Positions 22,759-31,743 of a stretch of 49,845 nucleotides of DNA are shown here, piece after piece; the first letter of the stretch is position 1, and the number at the start of each line of letters is the position of its first letter. Location: the NCBI GenBank assembly GCA_024641635.1, contig JAHECS010000024.1, positions 1-49,845 on the forward strand, in the 5' to 3' direction. The position numbers and the translations under genes are program-made. The stretch is from Actinomycetes bacterium. Lineage in GTDB: Bacteria > Actinomycetota > Actinomycetes > S36-B12. The notes under the pieces were generated by a model. That model did no database searches, was not told the origin of the DNA, and saw nothing but the letters and a program-made list of their open reading frames with translations.

Positions 22759-23468
22759 GCGGAGGCCGTGCGCCGCAGGAACCCCCGGATCGCCTCGCGC
22801 GCGTTGTCCCGGATCTCCGGGCCGTGGGTGAAGGCCGCGAGCGAGTAGTCCAGCTCGCCCAGCACGTGGGCGGACTGCCGGTTCTGCCTCGCGGAGGTGC
22901 AGAGCGTGGCGACGGGCCACCGCATGCGGGCGGCCATGTTGAAGATCGCATCGCCCGTGATGAGCACGCCTGAGGCCTCGTGCAGCAGGGACACGTGCCC
23001 CGGGGTGTGGCCGGGCGTGTGCACGATCCTCAGCCCGCCCGCGACGTCGACGACCTGCCCGTCCACGAGCTCGGTGAGGACCGGCACGGCGTCGAAGGAC
23101 GACATCGGCCCGCGCCCGAGGAGGCGGCCGGCGGTCGAGTCGGCGGCGGGGGCGCTGCGGCCCTCACGCACGTATCCGGCGTCGTCGGCGTGCACGTCCA
23201 CCCCGTCTGCCGTCGTCTCGGCGACCATCGCTCTCGCTCCGCCGGCGTGGTCGCCGTGCGCGTGCGTGAGCAGGATCCGCGTGACGTCCGACGGATGCCT
23301 GCCGATGCCGGCGAGGGCGGCGACGATGCGGCCCGGTGCCCGCTTGAGCCCACAGTCGACGAGAGTGACCTGGCCGTCGTCGTCGAGGAAGGCGAACGAG
23401 TTGATGTAGTCGCCCATTGTGGGGATCCGGTAGACGCCCGGAGCGAGCAGGACGATGGGTGCGGGCAC
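22755..23468 (-). CDS. MBL-fold metallo-hydrolase (glyoxalase II-like)
   Basis: A 237-residue protein with the complete HxHxDH metal motif (LLTHAHGDHAGG, about 68-79), the later histidine in VHTPGHTPGHVSLL and the metal-bridging aspartate in GVLITGDAIFN. This arrangement fits hydroxyacylglutathione hydrolase-like or general thioester/lactone hydrolases; in a mycothiol-using actinobacterium a thioester substrate is possible but unproven. GTG at 23468 is preceded at 6 nt by TAGGCT, so a leaderless start is likely. It diverges from the CBS gene across only 30 bp. Confidence 0.87.
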   Translation of the reverse strand: MPAPIVLLAPGVYRIPTMGDYINSFAFLDDDGQVTLVDCGLKRAPGRIVAALAGIGRHPSDVTRILLTHAHGDHAGGARAMVAETTADGVDVHADDAGYVREGRSAPAADSTAGRLLGRGPMSSFDAVPVLTELVDGQVVDVAGGLRIVHTPGHTPGHVSLLHEASGVLITGDAIFNMAARMRWPVATLCTSARQNRQSAHVLGELDYSLAAFTHGPEIRDNAREAIRGFLRRTASA

Positions 23469-23474
23469 CCGGGC

Positions 23475-23480
23475 AGCCTA
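23475..23480 (-). promoter_or_regulatory. -10 box for leaderless MBL gene (minus strand)
   Basis: TAGGCT on the minus strand, 6 nt before the GTG at 23468, back to back with the CBS -10 box. Confidence 0.55.
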
Positions 23481-23486
23481 CGGCGA

Positions 23487-23492
23487 TATGGT
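23487..23492 (+). promoter_or_regulatory. -10 box for leaderless CBS gene
   Basis: TATGGT, 6 nt before the GTG at 23499. Six bp separate it from the opposing -10 box. Confidence 0.55.
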
Positions 23493-23498
23493 CACCGG

Positions 23499-24875
23499 GT
23501 GCAGGTACACGAGTCAGTCCTCGAGCTCATCGGCAACACCCCGCTCGTTCGCCTGCGAAGCGTCACGCAGGGGATCGTCCCGGAGGGAGGCGCGCAGGTC
23601 TTCGCCAAGGTGGAGTACCTCAATCCCGGTGGCTCGGTCAAGGACCGCATCGCCGTGCGCATGGTCGACGCGGCCGAGCGTGACGGCCTCATCGAGCCGG
23701 GCGGCACCATCGTCGAGCCGACCAGCGGCAATACCGGCATCGGCCTCGCCCTCGTCGCCCAGCAGCGGGGCTATCGGTGCGTGTTCGTCTGCCCGGACAA
23801 GGTGAGCGAGGACAAGCGGAACGTCCTGAAGGCCTACGGGGCCGAGGTCGTCGTGTGCCCGACCGCCGTCGACCCTGAGGACCCGCGGTCGTACTACAGC
23901 GTCAGCGATCGCCTGGCCCGGGAGATCCCCGGGGCGTGGAAGCCCGACCAGTACGCCAATCCGAACAACCCGCTGTCGCACTACGAGACCACCGGACCCG
24001 AGCTGTGGGCGCAGACCGACGGGCGCATCACCCACTTCGTCGCGGGTGCCGGCACCGGCGGCACGATCACGGGCACCGGCCGCTACCTCAAGGAGGTCAG
24101 CGGCGGCGCCGTGCGGATCGTCGCCGCGGACCCGGAGGGGTCGGTCTACTCCGGCGGGACGGGGCGGCCGTACCTCGTCGAGGGCGTGGGCGAGGACTTC
24201 TGGCCGTCCACGTACGACGCATCGATCCCGGACGAGGTCATCGCGGTGTCCGACCGGGACTCCTTCGAGATGACCCGGCGCCTGGCCCGTGAGGAGGGGC
24301 TGCTGGTCGGGGGATCGTGCGGCATGGCCGTCGTCGCGGCGCTTCGGGTCGCCGCAGCGGCCGATCCCGACGATGTCGTCGTGGTCATCCTCCCGGACGG
24401 CGGTCGGGGGTACCTCTCGAAGGTGTTCAACGACGAGTGGCTGAGCAGGTACGGCTTCCTCCAGTCCGACAGCGAGACGACCGTGGGTGATGTCCTCCGG
24501 GCGAAGTCGGCGACCCTGCCGCCGTTCGTCCACACGCATCCGACGGAGACCGTCCGTGACGCCATCGACATCCTGCGGGAGTACGGCGTCTCGCAGATCC
24601 CTGTCGTACGCGCGGAGCCGCCGGTGATGGCAGCGGAGGTCGTGGGCTCGGTGATGGAACGGACCCTGCTCGACGACCTGTTCAACGGACGGGCGCAGCT
24701 GGCCGACACGGTGGATGCGCACATGTCGGATCCTCTGCCGATGGTCGGGGCGGGCGAGCCCGTGCACGCTGCGGTCGATGCGCTGCAGTCACACGACGCG
24801 GTGATCGTCGTCGACGACGGGAAGCCGACCGGCGTGGTCACCCGCCAGGACCTGCTCGGCTACCTCTCGCTCTGA
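23499..24875 (+). CDS. cbs: cystathionine beta-synthase
   Basis: A 458-residue protein: a fold-type II PLP domain (1-320) and a C-terminal pair of CBS domains (about 335-458). The PLP lysine is K48 in NPGGSVKDRI; EPTSGNTGIGLALV, GAGTGGTITGTGRYLKE and GGSCGMAVVAAL bind PLP and substrate. The first CBS repeat reads FVHTHPTETVRDAIDILREYGVSQIPVV and the second ends VIVVDDGKPTGVVTRQDLLGYL. It condenses homocysteine with serine (or acetylserine). The two CBS domains distinguish it from plain CysK. A gamma-lyase/synthase gene at 30592 could complete transsulfuration. The GTG start is supported by the -10 box. Confidence 0.93.
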   Translation: MQVHESVLELIGNTPLVRLRSVTQGIVPEGGAQVFAKVEYLNPGGSVKDRIAVRMVDAAERDGLIEPGGTIVEPTSGNTGIGLALVAQQRGYRCVFVCPDKVSEDKRNVLKAYGAEVVVCPTAVDPEDPRSYYSVSDRLAREIPGAWKPDQYANPNNPLSHYETTGPELWAQTDGRITHFVAGAGTGGTITGTGRYLKEVSGGAVRIVAADPEGSVYSGGTGRPYLVEGVGEDFWPSTYDASIPDEVIAVSDRDSFEMTRRLAREEGLLVGGSCGMAVVAALRVAAAADPDDVVVVILPDGGRGYLSKVFNDEWLSRYGFLQSDSETTVGDVLRAKSATLPPFVHTHPTETVRDAIDILREYGVSQIPVVRAEPPVMAAEVVGSVMERTLLDDLFNGRAQLADTVDAHMSDPLPMVGAGEPVHAAVDALQSHDAVIVVDDGKPTGVVTRQDLLGYLSL

Positions 24876-24987: not shown

Positions 24988-27900
24988 ATGGCAATAGACC
25001 GATCGCTCGAGTCGGGGTCATCCGCTGGGACGTCGCTGGATCGGGTCGTGGGGCTCGGCGCGTCCGCCGGAGGGCTGGAAGCCCTCCAGGAGGTCATGGG
25101 ATCCCTGTCGACGAGTCCGGGAATGGCCGTCATCATCGCCCAGCACCTTGCGCCTGACCATCCGAGCTCCCTCGCCCTGCTGCTGACGTCGGCGAGTGGG
25201 CGCTCGGTGGTCGAGGCGATCGACGACATGCCGCTGCGGCCGGGCGTCGTGTGCGTCGTCCCGTCCAACCGCGATGCCATCGTTGTGGGCGATCGCGTAC
25301 GGCTGGTCGAGCCGCCGCCTCGGACGAGCCCCAGCCCGAGCATCGACCGCCTCTTCGAGTCCCTTGCCGACGAGTGGGGGCCTCGGTCCGTCGGCGTCGT
25401 TCTCTCCGGGACGGGGGTCGATGGCGCCCAGGGTCTCCGCGCCATCCGGGGCGCGGACGGTCTCACGATGGTGCAGACGCCCGAGACGGCCCGCTTCGAC
25501 GGGATGCCGCGGGCGGCCATCGGCCTCGGAGGGGTGGACCTCGTGGCGAGCGCGGCCGATATCGGCAATCGGCTGGGGGCCTTGTTCGAGGGCGGTGAGG
25601 GCGCCTTCGCCGCATCCGTTCCCGAGCCTGGGGGCGAGGTCCTGAGCCAGATCGCGGCCCGACTGCGACACGTGACGGGCATCGACTTCGCGGGCTACAA
25701 GCCGACGACTTTGACCCGGCAGATCCAGAGACGAATGGCCGTGCGCCAGGTGTCCGAGGATGGCGACTACGCGGCATTGCTCATGCGAGACCTCGCTGAA
25801 GCGCAGGCGCTGGCGGACAACCTCCTCGTGACCGTCACGTCGTTCTTTCGGGACGACGATGCGTTCGCGGCCCTGCGCTCCCAGGTCACCGACTACGTCA
25901 CCGCGCTGGCCCCGACAGCGACCATCCGCGTCTGGATACCCGGGTGTGCGACCGGTGAGGAGGCCTACTCGATCGGCATGCTGATCAGTGAGGCGCTCGG
26001 GCGCCCGATGGACCTGCCCCGTCGGCTGAAGATCTTCGCCAGCGACATTCACGAGCCGAGCCTGGGCATCGGTCGGCAGGCCTGGTACCCCGCGTCCGAA
26101 GCCGACCGCGTGCCCCCGGAGCTGCTGTCGGTCTACACCCGGGCCGTGCGGGGCGGGGTTCAGATGGTCGAGACCCTTCGTGAGTGCGTGGTCTTCGCCC
26201 GTCACGATGTGACGAATGACCCCCCGTTCCCGAGCATCGACCTGGTCTCCTGTCGGAACACGCTGATCTACTTCACCCGCCCCACCCAGGATCGCGTTCT
26301 GGGATGCTTCGAGTTCGCGGTCAAGCCGGGCGGCATCCTCTTCCTCGGCGCGGTGGAGAGCCTCGACCGCGGAAGCAAGACCTTCCGTGCGCTCGACGCG
26401 GACAATCGGATCTACACGAGGATCCCCGGCACGTCACCCCGGACGTGGCAACCGGTGGTGCGCCTCGCTGGATCCGTGTCCGCTGCGGAGCGCAAGCCCG
26501 AGTTGCTGCCGCCTCCGGAGAGCTCTCGGTTGACCGAGGAGAACGAGCTGCTCGAGGCACTCGTGCGGTTGGGCGGCACGTCCTTCCTGGTCTTCGACCA
26601 AGCGCAGAACCTCGTCCGGGTGGGCGGTGACGTGTCCGGCTACTGCACCCTTCCCGCGGGCCGCCTCGCCGCCGCCGGTGGAGCGTTCCTGAGGCCGGAA
26701 CTCAGGGACGAGGCGCGAGCGCTCTTCCTCCTCTGCCGCGCCGACGGACGACCGGTTACCGGCCAGCAGGTGGTCCTCCCTGATTCCGGGGTCGTCGTGC
26801 GCATGCGTGCCACGCCCGTGCCGCTGGCCGGGGAGGAGGGCATCGTCGTGTCCTTCGCGCGGGAGGATGACGTGCCCGGCGTCGACGAGGTCCCCGCTCG
26901 AACTGAGACCTTCGAGCGCGAGCTCGAGCGGCTGGAGCGGGAGCTGCTCATCAGTCAGGATTCGCTGCGGCGATCCCTCGGCGAGCTCCAGGCCACCAAC
27001 GAGGAGCTTGAAGCATCGGCCGAGGAGCTCCAGGCGGCATCGGAGGAACTGCAGTCCTCGAACGAGGAGCTGCAGGCGTCGAACGAGGAGATCCAGGCGA
27101 CGAACGAGGAACTGGGGACCCTCAACCTAGAGCTGACGAAGCGCACTGAGTCCTCCGAGGCGCTCACCCTGGAGCTGGAGAACATCCAGGCGTCCCTCAG
27201 CCAGGGGATGGTGCTCCTCGACCGGGACCTTTGCGTGAGGCGCTACACGCCGATGGCTGTGCGGCTCTTCGCCTTGGTGGACACCGATATCGGCCGCCCG
27301 CTGCTGTCCGTACCCACGACATCTCGGATCGAGGGCCTCCACACAGCCCTACGAGCGGTGCTCGGCGGCGAGCCACGGCGGTCCCTGGAGACGGTTGGGG
27401 GCGCGATGACCTACCTCCTCCAGGTTCTGCCGTACCTCGACAGTCATGCGGAGTGCGTCGGTGTCATCGTCACGATGACCGATATCTCGGAGATGGTGGG
27501 GTTGCGCCGTGCCGCGGACGACGCCTTCAGTGATCTCGAGGCCAAGAGCGAGCTCCTCGCTGACATGGCCGCGACGGACAGCCTCACCGGTCTGGGCAAC
27601 CGGCGGGCCTTCCTGACCAGGATCTCGCGCGCCGTCGACCGAGCGGAGCGCAGCGGGCGCACCTTCGCCCTCGTCGAGCTGGACCTCGACCGCTTCAAGG
27701 AGGTCAACGACGAGATGGGTCATGCCGCCGGTGACCTCGTCCTCGCCGCCACGGCGAGCCGCATCACGGACGTCGTCCGCGGAACGGACAGCGTGGCCCG
27801 ACTCGGCGGAGACGAGTTCGGCGTCCTGCTCGAGGACTTCGGCCACCCCGCCGAGCTCGAACTCATCGTCGATCGCCTGCGGCTCTCGCTCGAAGAGCCG

Positions 27901-28845
27901 GTCGACGTCGGCGACAGGATCGCTTTGTCGAGTGCCAGCATCGGCGTCGCGCTCTTCCCTCGGGATGGGCGGAGCGAGGACGAGTTGATTCGGGCAGCGG
28001 ATGCAGCGATGTACGCGCAGAAGCGTCGCGGCGGAGATGGATTCTCCTATTTCGACACGTCGATGAACGAGGCGGCCGAGATCCGTCGAAGGACGAGGCT
28101 CGAGGTCGCGGCGGCGATCGAGGCCCGTGAGTTCGAGATGCACTACCAGCCGATCGTCGACGCGGTCACCCGGCAGGTGCGGCTCGTCGAGGCGCTGGTG
28201 CGCTGGCGGCGGCGCGGCGTCGTCGTCGCGGCTGCTGACTTCGTCCCGTTCTGCGAGGAATCGCGGCAGGTTCGAGCGCTCGGGGAGATCGTCGCGGAGC
28301 TCGTGAGCGCTGACCTCCCCGAGCTGCTGAGCGCGGGTCCGGCCGCCCTCCGCATCTGCGTCAACGTGTCCGTGGAACAGCTCGAGGAGCGGGGCGTCAA
28401 CGTGGCCGTGTTCAGCGAGTCGCTGCACGGACATCTTGACCGCCTGGTCGTGGAGATCCTGGAGACGGTCTTCCTGCCCAACCACCCGATCGCACTCGAC
28501 CGGGTCCGGGGCCTGGCGGGCATGGGCGCTCAGATCGCGATCGACGACTACGGATCCGGCTACTCCAACATGCTCCTGCTCGAGTCGCTCTCGCCGGACT
28601 ACATCAAGCTCGATCGGACGTTTCTCGGGGAGGGCCGTACGGCCGCCGATCGCCTCTCGATGATCCGCTCCGCCGTGGACGTCGCCCACGTGGTGGGCAG
28701 TCAGGTCATCGCCGAGGGGATCGAGACGGAGGAGCAGCTGCATGTCGCCCTCGACGCGGGGGTCGACTTGATCCAGGGCTACCACGTCGGCGGGCCGATG
28801 CCGCTCGCCGAGCTCCTGGACTTCCTCGCCAGCGATCCGGCGTGA
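24988..28845 (+). CDS. CheB-CheR-PAS-GGDEF-EAL fusion signalling protein
   Basis: A 1285-residue cytosolic protein. A CheB methylesterase-like domain (about 18-200) has the full triad S26 (GASAGG), H53 (AQHLAPDH), D145 (GTGVDG). A CheR methyltransferase-like domain (about 215-480) has TSFFRDD, the SAM motif PGCATGEEAYSIG (318-330) and SCRNTLIYF. A PAS-like stretch (about 520-625) and a heptad-rich coiled coil (about 640-740) with repeated EELQA/NEEL units follow, then a second PAS-like region (735-835). The GGDEF domain has RLGGDEFG (938-945) and an I-site R931-x-x-D934. The EAL domain has EAL (1068-1070), N1126, E1156, D1186-D1187, K1207, E1243 and Q1263. All catalytic residues of both c-di-GMP domains are retained. 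No receptor, CheA or flagellar gene is nearby, so the methyl-group modules probably act in signalling rather than taxis. Confidence 0.93.
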   Translation: MAIDRSLESGSSAGTSLDRVVGLGASAGGLEALQEVMGSLSTSPGMAVIIAQHLAPDHPSSLALLLTSASGRSVVEAIDDMPLRPGVVCVVPSNRDAIVVGDRVRLVEPPPRTSPSPSIDRLFESLADEWGPRSVGVVLSGTGVDGAQGLRAIRGADGLTMVQTPETARFDGMPRAAIGLGGVDLVASAADIGNRLGALFEGGEGAFAASVPEPGGEVLSQIAARLRHVTGIDFAGYKPTTLTRQIQRRMAVRQVSEDGDYAALLMRDLAEAQALADNLLVTVTSFFRDDDAFAALRSQVTDYVTALAPTATIRVWIPGCATGEEAYSIGMLISEALGRPMDLPRRLKIFASDIHEPSLGIGRQAWYPASEADRVPPELLSVYTRAVRGGVQMVETLRECVVFARHDVTNDPPFPSIDLVSCRNTLIYFTRPTQDRVLGCFEFAVKPGGILFLGAVESLDRGSKTFRALDADNRIYTRIPGTSPRTWQPVVRLAGSVSAAERKPELLPPPESSRLTEENELLEALVRLGGTSFLVFDQAQNLVRVGGDVSGYCTLPAGRLAAAGGAFLRPELRDEARALFLLCRADGRPVTGQQVVLPDSGVVVRMRATPVPLAGEEGIVVSFAREDDVPGVDEVPARTETFERELERLERELLISQDSLRRSLGELQATNEELEASAEELQAASEELQSSNEELQASNEEIQATNEELGTLNLELTKRTESSEALTLELENIQASLSQGMVLLDRDLCVRRYTPMAVRLFALVDTDIGRPLLSVPTTSRIEGLHTALRAVLGGEPRRSLETVGGAMTYLLQVLPYLDSHAECVGVIVTMTDISEMVGLRRAADDAFSDLEAKSELLADMAATDSLTGLGNRRAFLTRISRAVDRAERSGRTFALVELDLDRFKEVNDEMGHAAGDLVLAATASRITDVVRGTDSVARLGGDEFGVLLEDFGHPAELELIVDRLRLSLEEPVDVGDRIALSSASIGVALFPRDGRSEDELIRAADAAMYAQKRRGGDGFSYFDTSMNEAAEIRRRTRLEVAAAIEAREFEMHYQPIVDAVTRQVRLVEALVRWRRRGVVVAAADFVPFCEESRQVRALGEIVAELVSADLPELLSAGPAALRICVNVSVEQLEERGVNVAVFSESLHGHLDRLVVEILETVFLPNHPIALDRVRGLAGMGAQIAIDDYGSGYSNMLLLESLSPDYIKLDRTFLGEGRTAADRLSMIRSAVDVAHVVGSQVIAEGIETEEQLHVALDAGVDLIQGYHVGGPMPLAELLDFLASDPA

Positions 28846-28857
28846 GACTCCGGACGG

Positions 28858-29514
28858 CTAGGAGGCCAGCGGCGGCAGGGCCAGCCCGGTGTTCGCGTGG
28901 CAGCGGTACCCGTTCGGGTTCTTGTACAGGTACTGCTGGTGGTAGTCCTCGGCGAGGTAGTACGTGCTGCTCTCCGCGGGGGCGATCTCGGTCGTGATGT
29001 CCGGGTAGCCACGATCGGCGATGACCGCCGCGTACGCGTCGCGCGTGCGTTCGATGAGGTCTCGCTGGCCGTCAGTCGTGTAGTACACGGCGCTGCGGTA
29101 CTGCGTGCCCATGTCGTTGCCCTGGCGGTAGCCCTGCGTCGGGTCGTGGTTCTCCCAGAACGCCTTGAGCACGTCGAAGGTCGACAGCACCGACGGGTCG
29201 TAGGCGACCATCGCCGTCTCGGTCTGCCCGGTTCGCCCCGAGCAGACCTCCTCGTAGGTCGGGTTGGGCGTGAATCCGCCCATGTAGCCGACGCTCGTCG
29301 TGACGACACCGGGCAGGCGCCAGAGGATCTCCTCCACTCCCCAGAAGCACCCCATCGCCACGTAGAGCACCTCGGTGCCCTCGGGGAACGGGCCGGTGAG
29401 CGAGCTGCCGAGCACGGCGTGGGGCGCCGGGTGGGGCAGGACGGGATTGGACCGTCCGGCGAGCGCCCCCTCGGGGGCGACCATGCGAGACCTGCTGGCG
29501 CTGAAGATGCTCAT
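28858..29514 (-). CDS. msrA: peptide methionine sulfoxide reductase A
   Basis: A 218-residue MsrA, reducing the S-epimer of methionine sulfoxide in proteins or free. The catalytic cysteine is C56 in AMGCFWGVEE; a C-terminal cysteine in NGYRCHANTG can act as resolving residue. SVGYMGG, NPTYEEVCSG, FWENHDPTQGYRQGNDMGTQYRS and AEDYHQQYLYKNP are conserved. ATG at 29514 is preceded at 6 nt by TAGGGT, whose first three bases are the stop codon of the upstream gene. It follows the M15 gene on the same strand and may be read both from it and from its own promoter. Confidence 0.96.
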   Translation of the reverse strand: MSIFSASRSRMVAPEGALAGRSNPVLPHPAPHAVLGSSLTGPFPEGTEVLYVAMGCFWGVEEILWRLPGVVTTSVGYMGGFTPNPTYEEVCSGRTGQTETAMVAYDPSVLSTFDVLKAFWENHDPTQGYRQGNDMGTQYRSAVYYTTDGQRDLIERTRDAYAAVIADRGYPDITTEIAPAESSTYYLAEDYHQQYLYKNPNGYRCHANTGLALPPLAS

Positions 29515-29526: not shown

Positions 29527-30573
29527 AGCGGGCTTCCGTCCCACGTCGAAATGGTGATAGTCGCCGCGCGGCCCCAGCCAGGACCAGCCCAGGGACTTCA
29601 TCAGCTGGACCGGCGGGCTGTTCGGCGTCAGGAGCAGGGGAGTGAAGGGCCGGCTGGGTCCGGGGAGGAACAGCGAGTTCGGGAACGGTCCGCGCCGGGA
29701 CCGGTAAGGGTTCTCCCAGGGGTTGAGGTCCAGGGCGCGGCCGCCGGCGTGCGGGCTCACCACGCGCTGCTTCTCCCGGCCCACGATGTACCGGCAGTTG
29801 AACATCGACGTGTTCCCCGATGCCATCGACGCGTAGTCGTTGGCGCCGGGCCCGATCGGGGAGGGGCCGTAGACGTCGACCGGGTGCATCGACCAGATCC
29901 GGTACTGGAGGTCGTGGAGCTTCGTGAGCGCCAGCGCGACGCGCTCGGCGGCGTTCGCGCGCGAGATGAGGACGCCGCGGTGCCGGTAGCCGTCCGGCGC
30001 GATGTAGTTGACCTGCACCTCCCTCAGGAGATCGAAGCGCAGGCAACCGGGACGCCACGACAGGCCGGTCATCGACGCCTGCCGCTCGGGGGAGATGGGC
30101 AGGACGGCCGGGTTCGCACCGGGCCCGAAGGCGGGCGGGTCGGCGATCACTCCGATGGGCTCAGGCGTCGATCGGACATCGGGGAAGGCGGGGTCGACCG
30201 GGATGGCCACCTCGACGACGCTCGGACCGGCGGTCACCACCGCCGTGAACGGCCCCCACGCGGTGAGCAGCAGGTCAGCGCTGCCCGTGGCGTCGGCTGC
30301 GGCGCTCACCGGTCCGGCAGGGCCGGTCAGCGTCACGACGGATCCGGGCTCGGCCCCCGACACGCGCACGGATCCGGGCACCTCGGAGACGAGCCCGCCC
30401 GTGACCGCCAGGGTGCCCGGGCCAGGGGTGCCCGCCCCCTGGTCGTCGGCTGACGCTGGGGCGGCGGCGAGCAGGGCGGCGAGCGCCAGGGACGTCGCGG
30501 CCGCCAGCGCGGTGATCCCTGGATGCGCGGCGCGGGCCGTCGCCGGCCGTGCGGCACGGCGGTGCTGGAGCAT
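29524..30573 (-). CDS. secreted M15-type peptidase-like protein
   Basis: A 349-residue protein with a Sec-type signal peptide (about 1-42; hydrophobic core ITALAAATSLALAALLAAAPASA) and an Ig-like Gly/Pro/Thr-rich region (about 50-150). The C-terminal part has the M15 D-Ala-D-Ala carboxypeptidase pattern: SPHAGGRALDLNPWENPY (His-x6-Asp) and the second metal histidines in GPRGDYHHFDV. It would act on cell-wall peptides outside the membrane. The extension of this open frame upstream of 30573 is antisense to metB and is not real. ATG at 30573 has TACCCT 6 nt upstream. Confidence 0.8.
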   Translation of the reverse strand: MLQHRRAARPATARAAHPGITALAAATSLALAALLAAAPASADDQGAGTPGPGTLAVTGGLVSEVPGSVRVSGAEPGSVVTLTGPAGPVSAAADATGSADLLLTAWGPFTAVVTAGPSVVEVAIPVDPAFPDVRSTPEPIGVIADPPAFGPGANPAVLPISPERQASMTGLSWRPGCLRFDLLREVQVNYIAPDGYRHRGVLISRANAAERVALALTKLHDLQYRIWSMHPVDVYGPSPIGPGANDYASMASGNTSMFNCRYIVGREKQRVVSPHAGGRALDLNPWENPYRSRRGPFPNSLFLPGPSRPFTPLLLTPNSPPVQLMKSLGWSWLGPRGDYHHFDVGRKPA

Positions 30574-30578
30574 GGTCC

Positions 30579-30584
30579 TAGGGT
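30579..30584 (+). promoter_or_regulatory. metB -10 box, superimposed on the opposing -10 box
   Basis: TAGGGT, 7 nt before the metB ATG at 30592. Shifted by one base on the other strand lies TACCCT (30580-30585) for the M15 gene. Confidence 0.55.
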
Positions 30585-30585
30585 A
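30580..30585 (-). promoter_or_regulatory. M15 gene -10 box, superimposed on the metB -10 box
   Basis: TACCCT on the minus strand, 6 nt before the ATG at 30573. Confidence 0.5.
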
Positions 30586-30591
30586 TGCGGC

Positions 30592-31743
30592 ATGGAGGGT
30601 TTCGAGACGCGCGCGATCCACGCCGGGCAGGAGCCCGACCCGCTCACCGGGGCGGTCGTGCCGCCGATCTACCAGGTGTCGACCTACGCGCAGGACGGCG
30701 TCGGCGGGCTTCGGGGCGGCTACGAGTACTCGCGCAGCGCCAACCCGACGCGGACGGCGCTGCAGGAGTGCCTCGCGGAGCTCGAGGCCCCCGGGCTGGG
30801 GGGGACGGGTCTCGCCTTCGCCTCCGGCCTCGCCGCCGAGGACACCCTCTTGCGGACCGTCTGCCGTCCCGGAGACCACGCGGTCATCCCCGACGATGCC
30901 TACGGCGGCACCTACCGGCTGTTCGCCAAGGTCGCGGAGCCATGGGGGCTTGACTACACCCCCGCCAGTCTGGGCGACCCGGACGCCGTCGCTTCGGCCA
31001 TCATCCCCGGACGGACGAAGGTGGTCTGGGTCGAGACGCCGACGAACCCCCTGCTCAACATCGCCGACATCGCCGCGCTCGCCGACGTCGCGCATGCGGC
31101 GGGCGCCATCCTCGTGGTCGACAACACCTTCGCATCGCCCTACCTCCAGCAGCCCCTGCTCCTCGGCGCGGACGTCGTCGCGCACAGCACCACCAAGTAC
31201 CTGGGAGGGCACAGTGACGTCGTCGGCGGTGCCCTCGTCACCGTGGACGCGGATCTCTCCGAGCGGCTCGCGTACCACCAGAACGCGATGGGCGCGGTCG
31301 CCGGACCGTTCGACTCGTGGCTGGTGCTGCGCGGGATCAAGACCCTGGGCGTCCGGATGGACCGCCACTGCTCCAACGCACGCGCCGTGGCCGAGCACCT
31401 CGCCGGCCACGCGGCGGTCTCGGAGGTGCTCTGGCCCGGACTGCCGGAGCACCCGGGGCACGATGTCGCGCAGAAGCAGATGCGCGACTTCGGCGGCATG
31501 GTGTCGTTCCGGGTGGCGGCAGGGGAGCTGGCCGCGGTCGACCTGTGCGGGCGCACCCGGGTGTTCACCCTGGGCGAGTCACTGGGCGGCGTCGAGTCCC
31601 TCATCGAGCATCCGGCGCGGATGACACACGCCTCGGCGGCGGGCAGCCCGCTCGAGGTGCCGGCCGACCTCGTCCGGCTGTCCGTGGGGATCGAGACCGT
31701 CGATGACCTGCTTGAGGACCTCGACCGCGCGCTGACGGCCTAG
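30592..31743 (+). CDS. metB: cystathionine gamma-synthase / gamma-lyase
   Basis: A 383-residue fold-type I PLP enzyme of the Cys/Met metabolism family. The PLP lysine is K202 in HSTTKYLGGHSD; FETRAIHAGQEPD, YEYSRSANPTRTALQ, WVETPTNPLLNIADI, VVDNTFASPYLQQPL and SLGGVESLIEHPARMTHAS are typical. Sequence alone does not separate the synthase (MetB) from the lyase; together with the CBS gene at 23499, a transsulfuration role is likely. The ATG at 30592 sits 7 nt after its -10 box. The membrane-protein gene starts 2 nt after its stop. Confidence 0.92.
   Translation: MEGFETRAIHAGQEPDPLTGAVVPPIYQVSTYAQDGVGGLRGGYEYSRSANPTRTALQECLAELEAPGLGGTGLAFASGLAAEDTLLRTVCRPGDHAVIPDDAYGGTYRLFAKVAEPWGLDYTPASLGDPDAVASAIIPGRTKVVWVETPTNPLLNIADIAALADVAHAAGAILVVDNTFASPYLQQPLLLGADVVAHSTTKYLGGHSDVVGGALVTVDADLSERLAYHQNAMGAVAGPFDSWLVLRGIKTLGVRMDRHCSNARAVAEHLAGHAAVSEVLWPGLPEHPGHDVAQKQMRDFGGMVSFRVAAGELAAVDLCGRTRVFTLGESLGGVESLIEHPARMTHASAAGSPLEVPADLVRLSVGIETVDDLLEDLDRALTA

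Follow-up and report, generated by a model that had tools for sequence, protein, structure and literature searches.

The window analyzed here, a 49,845-nucleotide stretch of an Actinomycetes genome, encodes a 1285-residue protein in which CheB and CheR domains are joined, through two PAS domains and a long coiled coil, to a GGDEF diguanylate cyclase and an EAL phosphodiesterase. The heptads of this coil match, at the motif level, the published methylation consensus of chemoreceptors (Glu-Glu-x-x-small-small; PMC1079850, PMC6829392). This led us to a model, held with about even confidence, in which CheR would add methyl groups to the protein's own coil, the putative acceptor, and CheB would remove them, so that the c-di-GMP output of the protein is tuned.

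The gene is a single unbroken ORF with an ATG start (Table 1). All Pfam matches were above cut-off: CheB (residues 21-196, 4e-49), CheR_N (219-268), CheR (283-472, 1e-42), PAS_10 (730-833, 1e-14), GGDEF (861-1016, 2e-41), and EAL (1040-1269, 2e-52). Alignment to solved structures of CheB (1chd), CheR (5ftw, 1bc5, and 1af7), and GGDEF-EAL chains (4rnh and 5m3c) showed that the key residues are kept throughout: S26/H53/D145 in CheB; R288/E324/E325/D353/N424 in CheR; the I-site R931xxD934 and the GGDEF motif (940-944) in the cyclase; and E1068/N1126/E1156/D1186/D1187/K1207/E1243/E1246/Q1263 in the EAL domain. With its active-site motif, I-site, and metal- and substrate-binding EAL residues, the protein is predicted from sequence to be a bifunctional GGDEF-EAL c-di-GMP enzyme. 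It also falls in the CheB/CheR fusion family, since the catalytic domains of CheB and CheR are on the same chain and are followed by PAS, a NEEL-type coil, and PAS_10.

Table 1. Location of the fusion gene and its parts, in nucleotide positions of the window
Feature	Position	Strand	Basis
CheB-CheR-PAS-coil-PAS_10-GGDEF-EAL protein, 1285 aa	24988..28845	+	ORF, Pfam
CheB methylesterase domain, residues 21-196, S26/H53/D145 triad, without the usual receiver domain	25048..25575	+	
CheR_N and CheR SAM-dependent methyltransferase, residues 219-472	25642..26403	+	
PAS-fold domain, ~residues 513-628, missed by Pfam	26524..26871	+	AlphaFold2, VIA-align
Continuous helix (coiled coil), residues 640-736, 97 residues	26905..27195	+	AlphaFold2, high confidence in two models
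Proposed methyl-acceptor ladder, [EQ][EQ]xx[ASTG][ASTG] at residues 672, 679, 686, 693, 700	27001..27102	+	
PAS_10 domain, residues 730-833	27175..27486	+	Pfam; structural match to ThkA PAS 3a0s
GGDEF diguanylate cyclase with I-site R931xxD934	27568..28035	+	
EAL phosphodiesterase, key residues present	28105..28794	+	

The full AlphaFold2 model (40-sequence alignment, mean pLDDT 86.7) contained an extra PAS-like domain at ~513-625 and one continuous helix at 640-736, and a second model restricted to residues 505-860 (mean pLDDT 89.2) agreed on both. The first PAS region aligned with the TraJ PAS domain 4kqd (VIA-align Z 10.2 over 109 residues, rmsd 3.4) and the PAS_10 region with the ThkA PAS domain 3a0s (Z 12.4 over 93 residues, rmsd 2.4). 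Hydropathy predicted no membrane segment, the highest 19-residue value being 1.48, and the MCP signaling hairpin (PF00015) was absent from the protein in the Pfam search and from its genome. A sequence-only reading of the same DNA had described one protein joining CheB, CheR, PAS-like, GGDEF, and EAL modules, with a long heptad coiled coil, an I-site, and the key phosphodiesterase residues; the ORF, the Pfam matches, the structure alignments, and the single predicted helix bear this out, and the description was incomplete only in missing the second PAS fold.

The helix contains heptads of the form N-E-E-L-Q-A-S, and its five consecutive motifs, three of which read EExxA[ST], are spaced by exactly seven residues. 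When the coil was shuffled, three motifs were reached in 1 of 20000 trials (5 of 20000 with Leu fixed), compared with the five observed. The same motif occurred in runs of up to four in 20 MCPs taken as positive controls. A ladder of at least three motifs was found in 39 of 54 family members but in only 2 of 1230 other ORFs; one of these is an archaeal MCP and the other a split family member from Deinococcus, located beside CheR. Fewer than three consecutive motifs were present in the other 15 family members, and in L066 and L071 the ladder is down to one motif with the CheB and CheR residues intact. Across 40 proteins of 28-55% identity from several phyla, the Glu pairs are either invariant or conserved to 90% or more, on par with the catalytic residues; in a set of 18 diverse coils, most of the pairs are invariant and the length differs by whole heptads. 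With Leu as heptad position d, the second Glu falls at position c, and the conservation of this exposed Glu is close to that of the core Leu when positions are counted with Leu anchoring (anchoring on Glu inflates Glu conservation). Two features run counter to self-methylation: the short ladders of some family members, L066 and L071 among them, and heptad position e before the Glu pair, which is Gln or Glu where a small residue is expected. The sequence-only reading had supposed that the methyl-group modules might modify something; it missed the match of the coil to the methyl-acceptor consensus, which offers a concrete candidate for that substrate.

To see how the coil is distributed, 296 Actinomycetota genomes were searched with a profile of it, and 29 had a match. 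In 24 of the 29 the match lay in an ORF also bearing CheR, and CheB was encoded by that ORF or by one close to it; the others were two contig-edge or short fragments and three proteins of genus g151 that contain neither CheB nor CheR. CheR was present in 28 of the 29 coil-positive genomes and in 89 of the 267 coil-negative ones (Fisher p ~1e-11), an association that is largely explained by the coil and CheR sharing one gene. The coil-positive genome with no strong CheR match (G435) is that of the L135 coil fragment. With genus g151 left out, MCPs were absent from 21 of 26 coil genomes. The three g151 proteins, which include a histidine kinase and a Cache-GAF protein, have Glu-ladder coils, one with three motifs, and, like the L135 fragment, they count against self-methylation, although their genomes do have CheR and MCPs. 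Two of them, L138:195-3941 (dCache-GAF) and L139:529-4653, are possible substrates of CheR in trans.

The coil could be conserved for dimerization alone. Such a reading, in which it is a rod for dimerization and signal transmission and CheR and CheB act on another cytosolic protein, draws on the Glu-rich heptad coils of the g151 proteins that lack CheB and CheR and on the AlphaFold2 models, where one long helix connects the two PAS domains, an arrangement shared with ordinary PAS sensors. We nevertheless judge it less likely than self-methylation, since the exposed second Glu is conserved like the core Leu and the Glu pairs like catalytic residues, the coil accompanies CheR even where CheB is a separate gene, and the coil profile matched nothing in the window's own genome other than the 1285-residue protein.

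The assembly (3.06 Mb) was searched for the other components of a chemosensory system. Its sole CheB and its sole CheR both sit in the fusion protein, and no member of the MCP, CheW, or flagellin families was found across the whole assembly, which extends the sequence-only reading's remark that the window holds no receptor or flagellar genes. With neither an MCP nor a CheW domain (CheA carries a CheW-like domain), no classical chemosensory pathway was found in the genome, and the case that the sequence-only reading had named as refuting, an ordinary chemotaxis cluster served by this protein as its only CheB and CheR, does not apply. It does encode 26 GGDEF domains. Within the order, the fusion is present in 20 of 166 genomes, 15 of these without MCPs and five with them.

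The lack of a classical substrate in this genome would also suit CheB and CheR retained as non-catalytic sensors of a ligand such as SAM or SAH, setting the c-di-GMP output allosterically. This appears improbable, as the CheB Ser/His/Asp and CheR Arg/Glu/Asp/Asn residues do not vary among 40 proteins with identities as low as 28%, unlike those of pseudo-enzymes, and a SAM sensor would have no need of CheB. That the protein modifies chemoreceptors missing from a draft assembly of 82 contigs that is 96.9% complete, as a component of a Wsp-like pathway or of ordinary chemotaxis, is very improbable even though some relatives in the order carry MCPs, given the absence of MCP, CheW, and flagellin here and the fact that the 15 genomes of the order with MCPs all belong to families other than that of the window, a family in which several members carry the fusion.

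Self-methylation of the coil would make the protein a soluble, receptor-independent adaptive sensor in a single chain. In this model, the chain would dimerize via the coil and the first PAS domain would sense a cytosolic cue. The Glu residues of the ladder would be methylated by CheR and demethylated by CheB, in cis or across the dimer, by analogy with what these enzymes do to chemoreceptor adaptation helices. The degree of methylation would then alter coil packing and reset the coupling of the PAS domains to the GGDEF/EAL pair, so that the c-di-GMP output would show adaptation or memory and depend on SAM. The feedback would be conformational and not via CheA phosphorylation, because CheB has no receiver domain through which CheA could act on it, and the search for CheW-domain proteins found none.

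The surroundings of the gene were compared with 20 relatives' loci, several of them short. A conserved gene neighborhood was rejected, as the window neighbors (CBS/PALP, MsrA, Cys/Met PLP enzyme, GH1, and PutA-like) had no counterparts in these loci, and no operon partner was found among them. The genes around it (23457-24875, 28858-29514, and 30523-31743) encode a CBS-domain PLP enzyme (cystathionine beta-synthase-like), MsrA, and a PLP enzyme of Cys/Met metabolism. They belong to sulfur amino acid metabolism, with a link to SAM/homocysteine, and their arrangement was not found in the relatives' loci. The view that the protein could be self-contained is thus well supported by the missing MCP, CheW, and flagellin families, the single CheB and CheR, and the lack of conserved neighbors. 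A phage origin of the coil and PAS regions was rejected, with no match in 50,697 phage records.

The same genus and family contain full-length relatives of 47-50% identity (L057=L014, L059, L060, and L062), and other families of the order have versions with additional PAS domains (L065, L067, L068, L069, L071, L072, and L073; L068 was recognized with profiles built in this analysis). Among fusions uncut by a contig end, two have no GGDEF-EAL (L063 and L070), and the gene directly before the L070 fusion encodes a GGDEF protein. Outside the order, a plasmid protein of Shewanella sp. LC6 (WP_140906637.1), annotated only as "EAL domain-containing protein," combines CheB, CheR, PAS_10, GGDEF, and EAL in one chain with the coil. 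A c-di-GMP output had been singled out by the sequence-only reading as the unusual element. No paper on such a CheB-CheR-GGDEF-EAL protein, or on self-methylation or an acceptor role of the coil, was found in a search that missed most subscription papers; the fusion is not singular, however, as it recurs in the order and in Shewanella. In a CheB-CheR tree, all GGDEF-EAL fusions, Shewanella included, fell in one clade with moderate support (89/72), and the GGDEF-EAL label required seven changes, a count that includes several contig-truncated rows scored as absent.

The core of the protein belongs to a known CheB/CheR fusion family whose outputs vary between kinase, phosphatase, GGDEF-EAL, and none. 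Elsewhere the same core carries HisKA-HATPase, an HWE kinase, a SpoIIE phosphatase, a receiver, or nothing recognizable, and the CheB and CheR catalytic residues are retained in all fusions examined. Two fusions (L112:1668-5864 and L113:839-4675) end in GAF and SpoIIE phosphatase domains, with PAS_10 detected in L112. A CheB-CheR-PAS gene adjoins a separate GGDEF-EAL gene in Rhodovulum, Saccharophagus, and Glaciecola (L015, L016, and L018), a two-gene version of the pairing with a receiver in two of the three. Three genomes of 5.6-6.2 Mb from one genus of the same class (L122, L123, and L124) encode CheR-PAS-coil-PAS with a CheB ORF nearby and no MCP. A 777-residue CheB-PAS-GGDEF-EAL protein (L076:6326-8656), in which CheB is shortened and both CheR and the coil are missing, is possibly a half-lost version of the fusion.

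CheB/CheR fusions are common, and no description of their methylation target in receptor-free organisms was found in the literature searched; the conserved Glu-pair ladder matching the chemoreceptor consensus is one candidate answer. More tentatively, and at somewhat less than even confidence, we suggest that these fusions may form a class of receptor-free adaptive signaling proteins with their own writer (CheR), eraser (CheB), and acceptor ladder and with interchangeable outputs (c-di-GMP, kinase, or phosphatase), much of the family occurring in bacteria without chemoreceptors and the window protein being the c-di-GMP version. If this is true, methylation-based sensory adaptation would extend beyond chemotaxis arrays and could be coupled to a second messenger within one chain.

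The CheB/CheR fusion class is already known by name (PMC8067831, PMC8396549). Its known members likewise have a CheB-CheR-PAS-coil-PAS_10 core, at ~30-50% identity, and a Glu-pair coil; the window protein differs in its GGDEF-EAL output and in a genome that lacks MCP and CheW. The Shewanella protein shares the chain and the coil but has one extra PAS domain, and its gene sits on a conjugative plasmid, in the vicinity of IS elements and a PAS-MCP gene. The PAS-GGDEF-EAL enzymes DosP and PA0861 share the PAS-helix-GGDEF-EAL carboxy half, and both are without CheB and CheR. Chemoreceptors of the Tsr type also have a coiled coil on which CheR and CheB act and on which Glu pairs, each with small residues after it, recur every seven residues, whereas the window protein lacks the signaling hairpin, carries the enzymes covalently attached, and would have c-di-GMP and not CheA as its output. 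Control of a diguanylate cyclase through MCP methylation is known from the Wsp pathway (PMC8919034), in which CheR (WspC) and CheB (WspF) act on an MCP (WspA) that governs the GGDEF protein WspR. In Wsp the MCP, CheA, and the receiver-GGDEF are separate proteins; the control proposed here from sequence would reside in one chain with no kinase.
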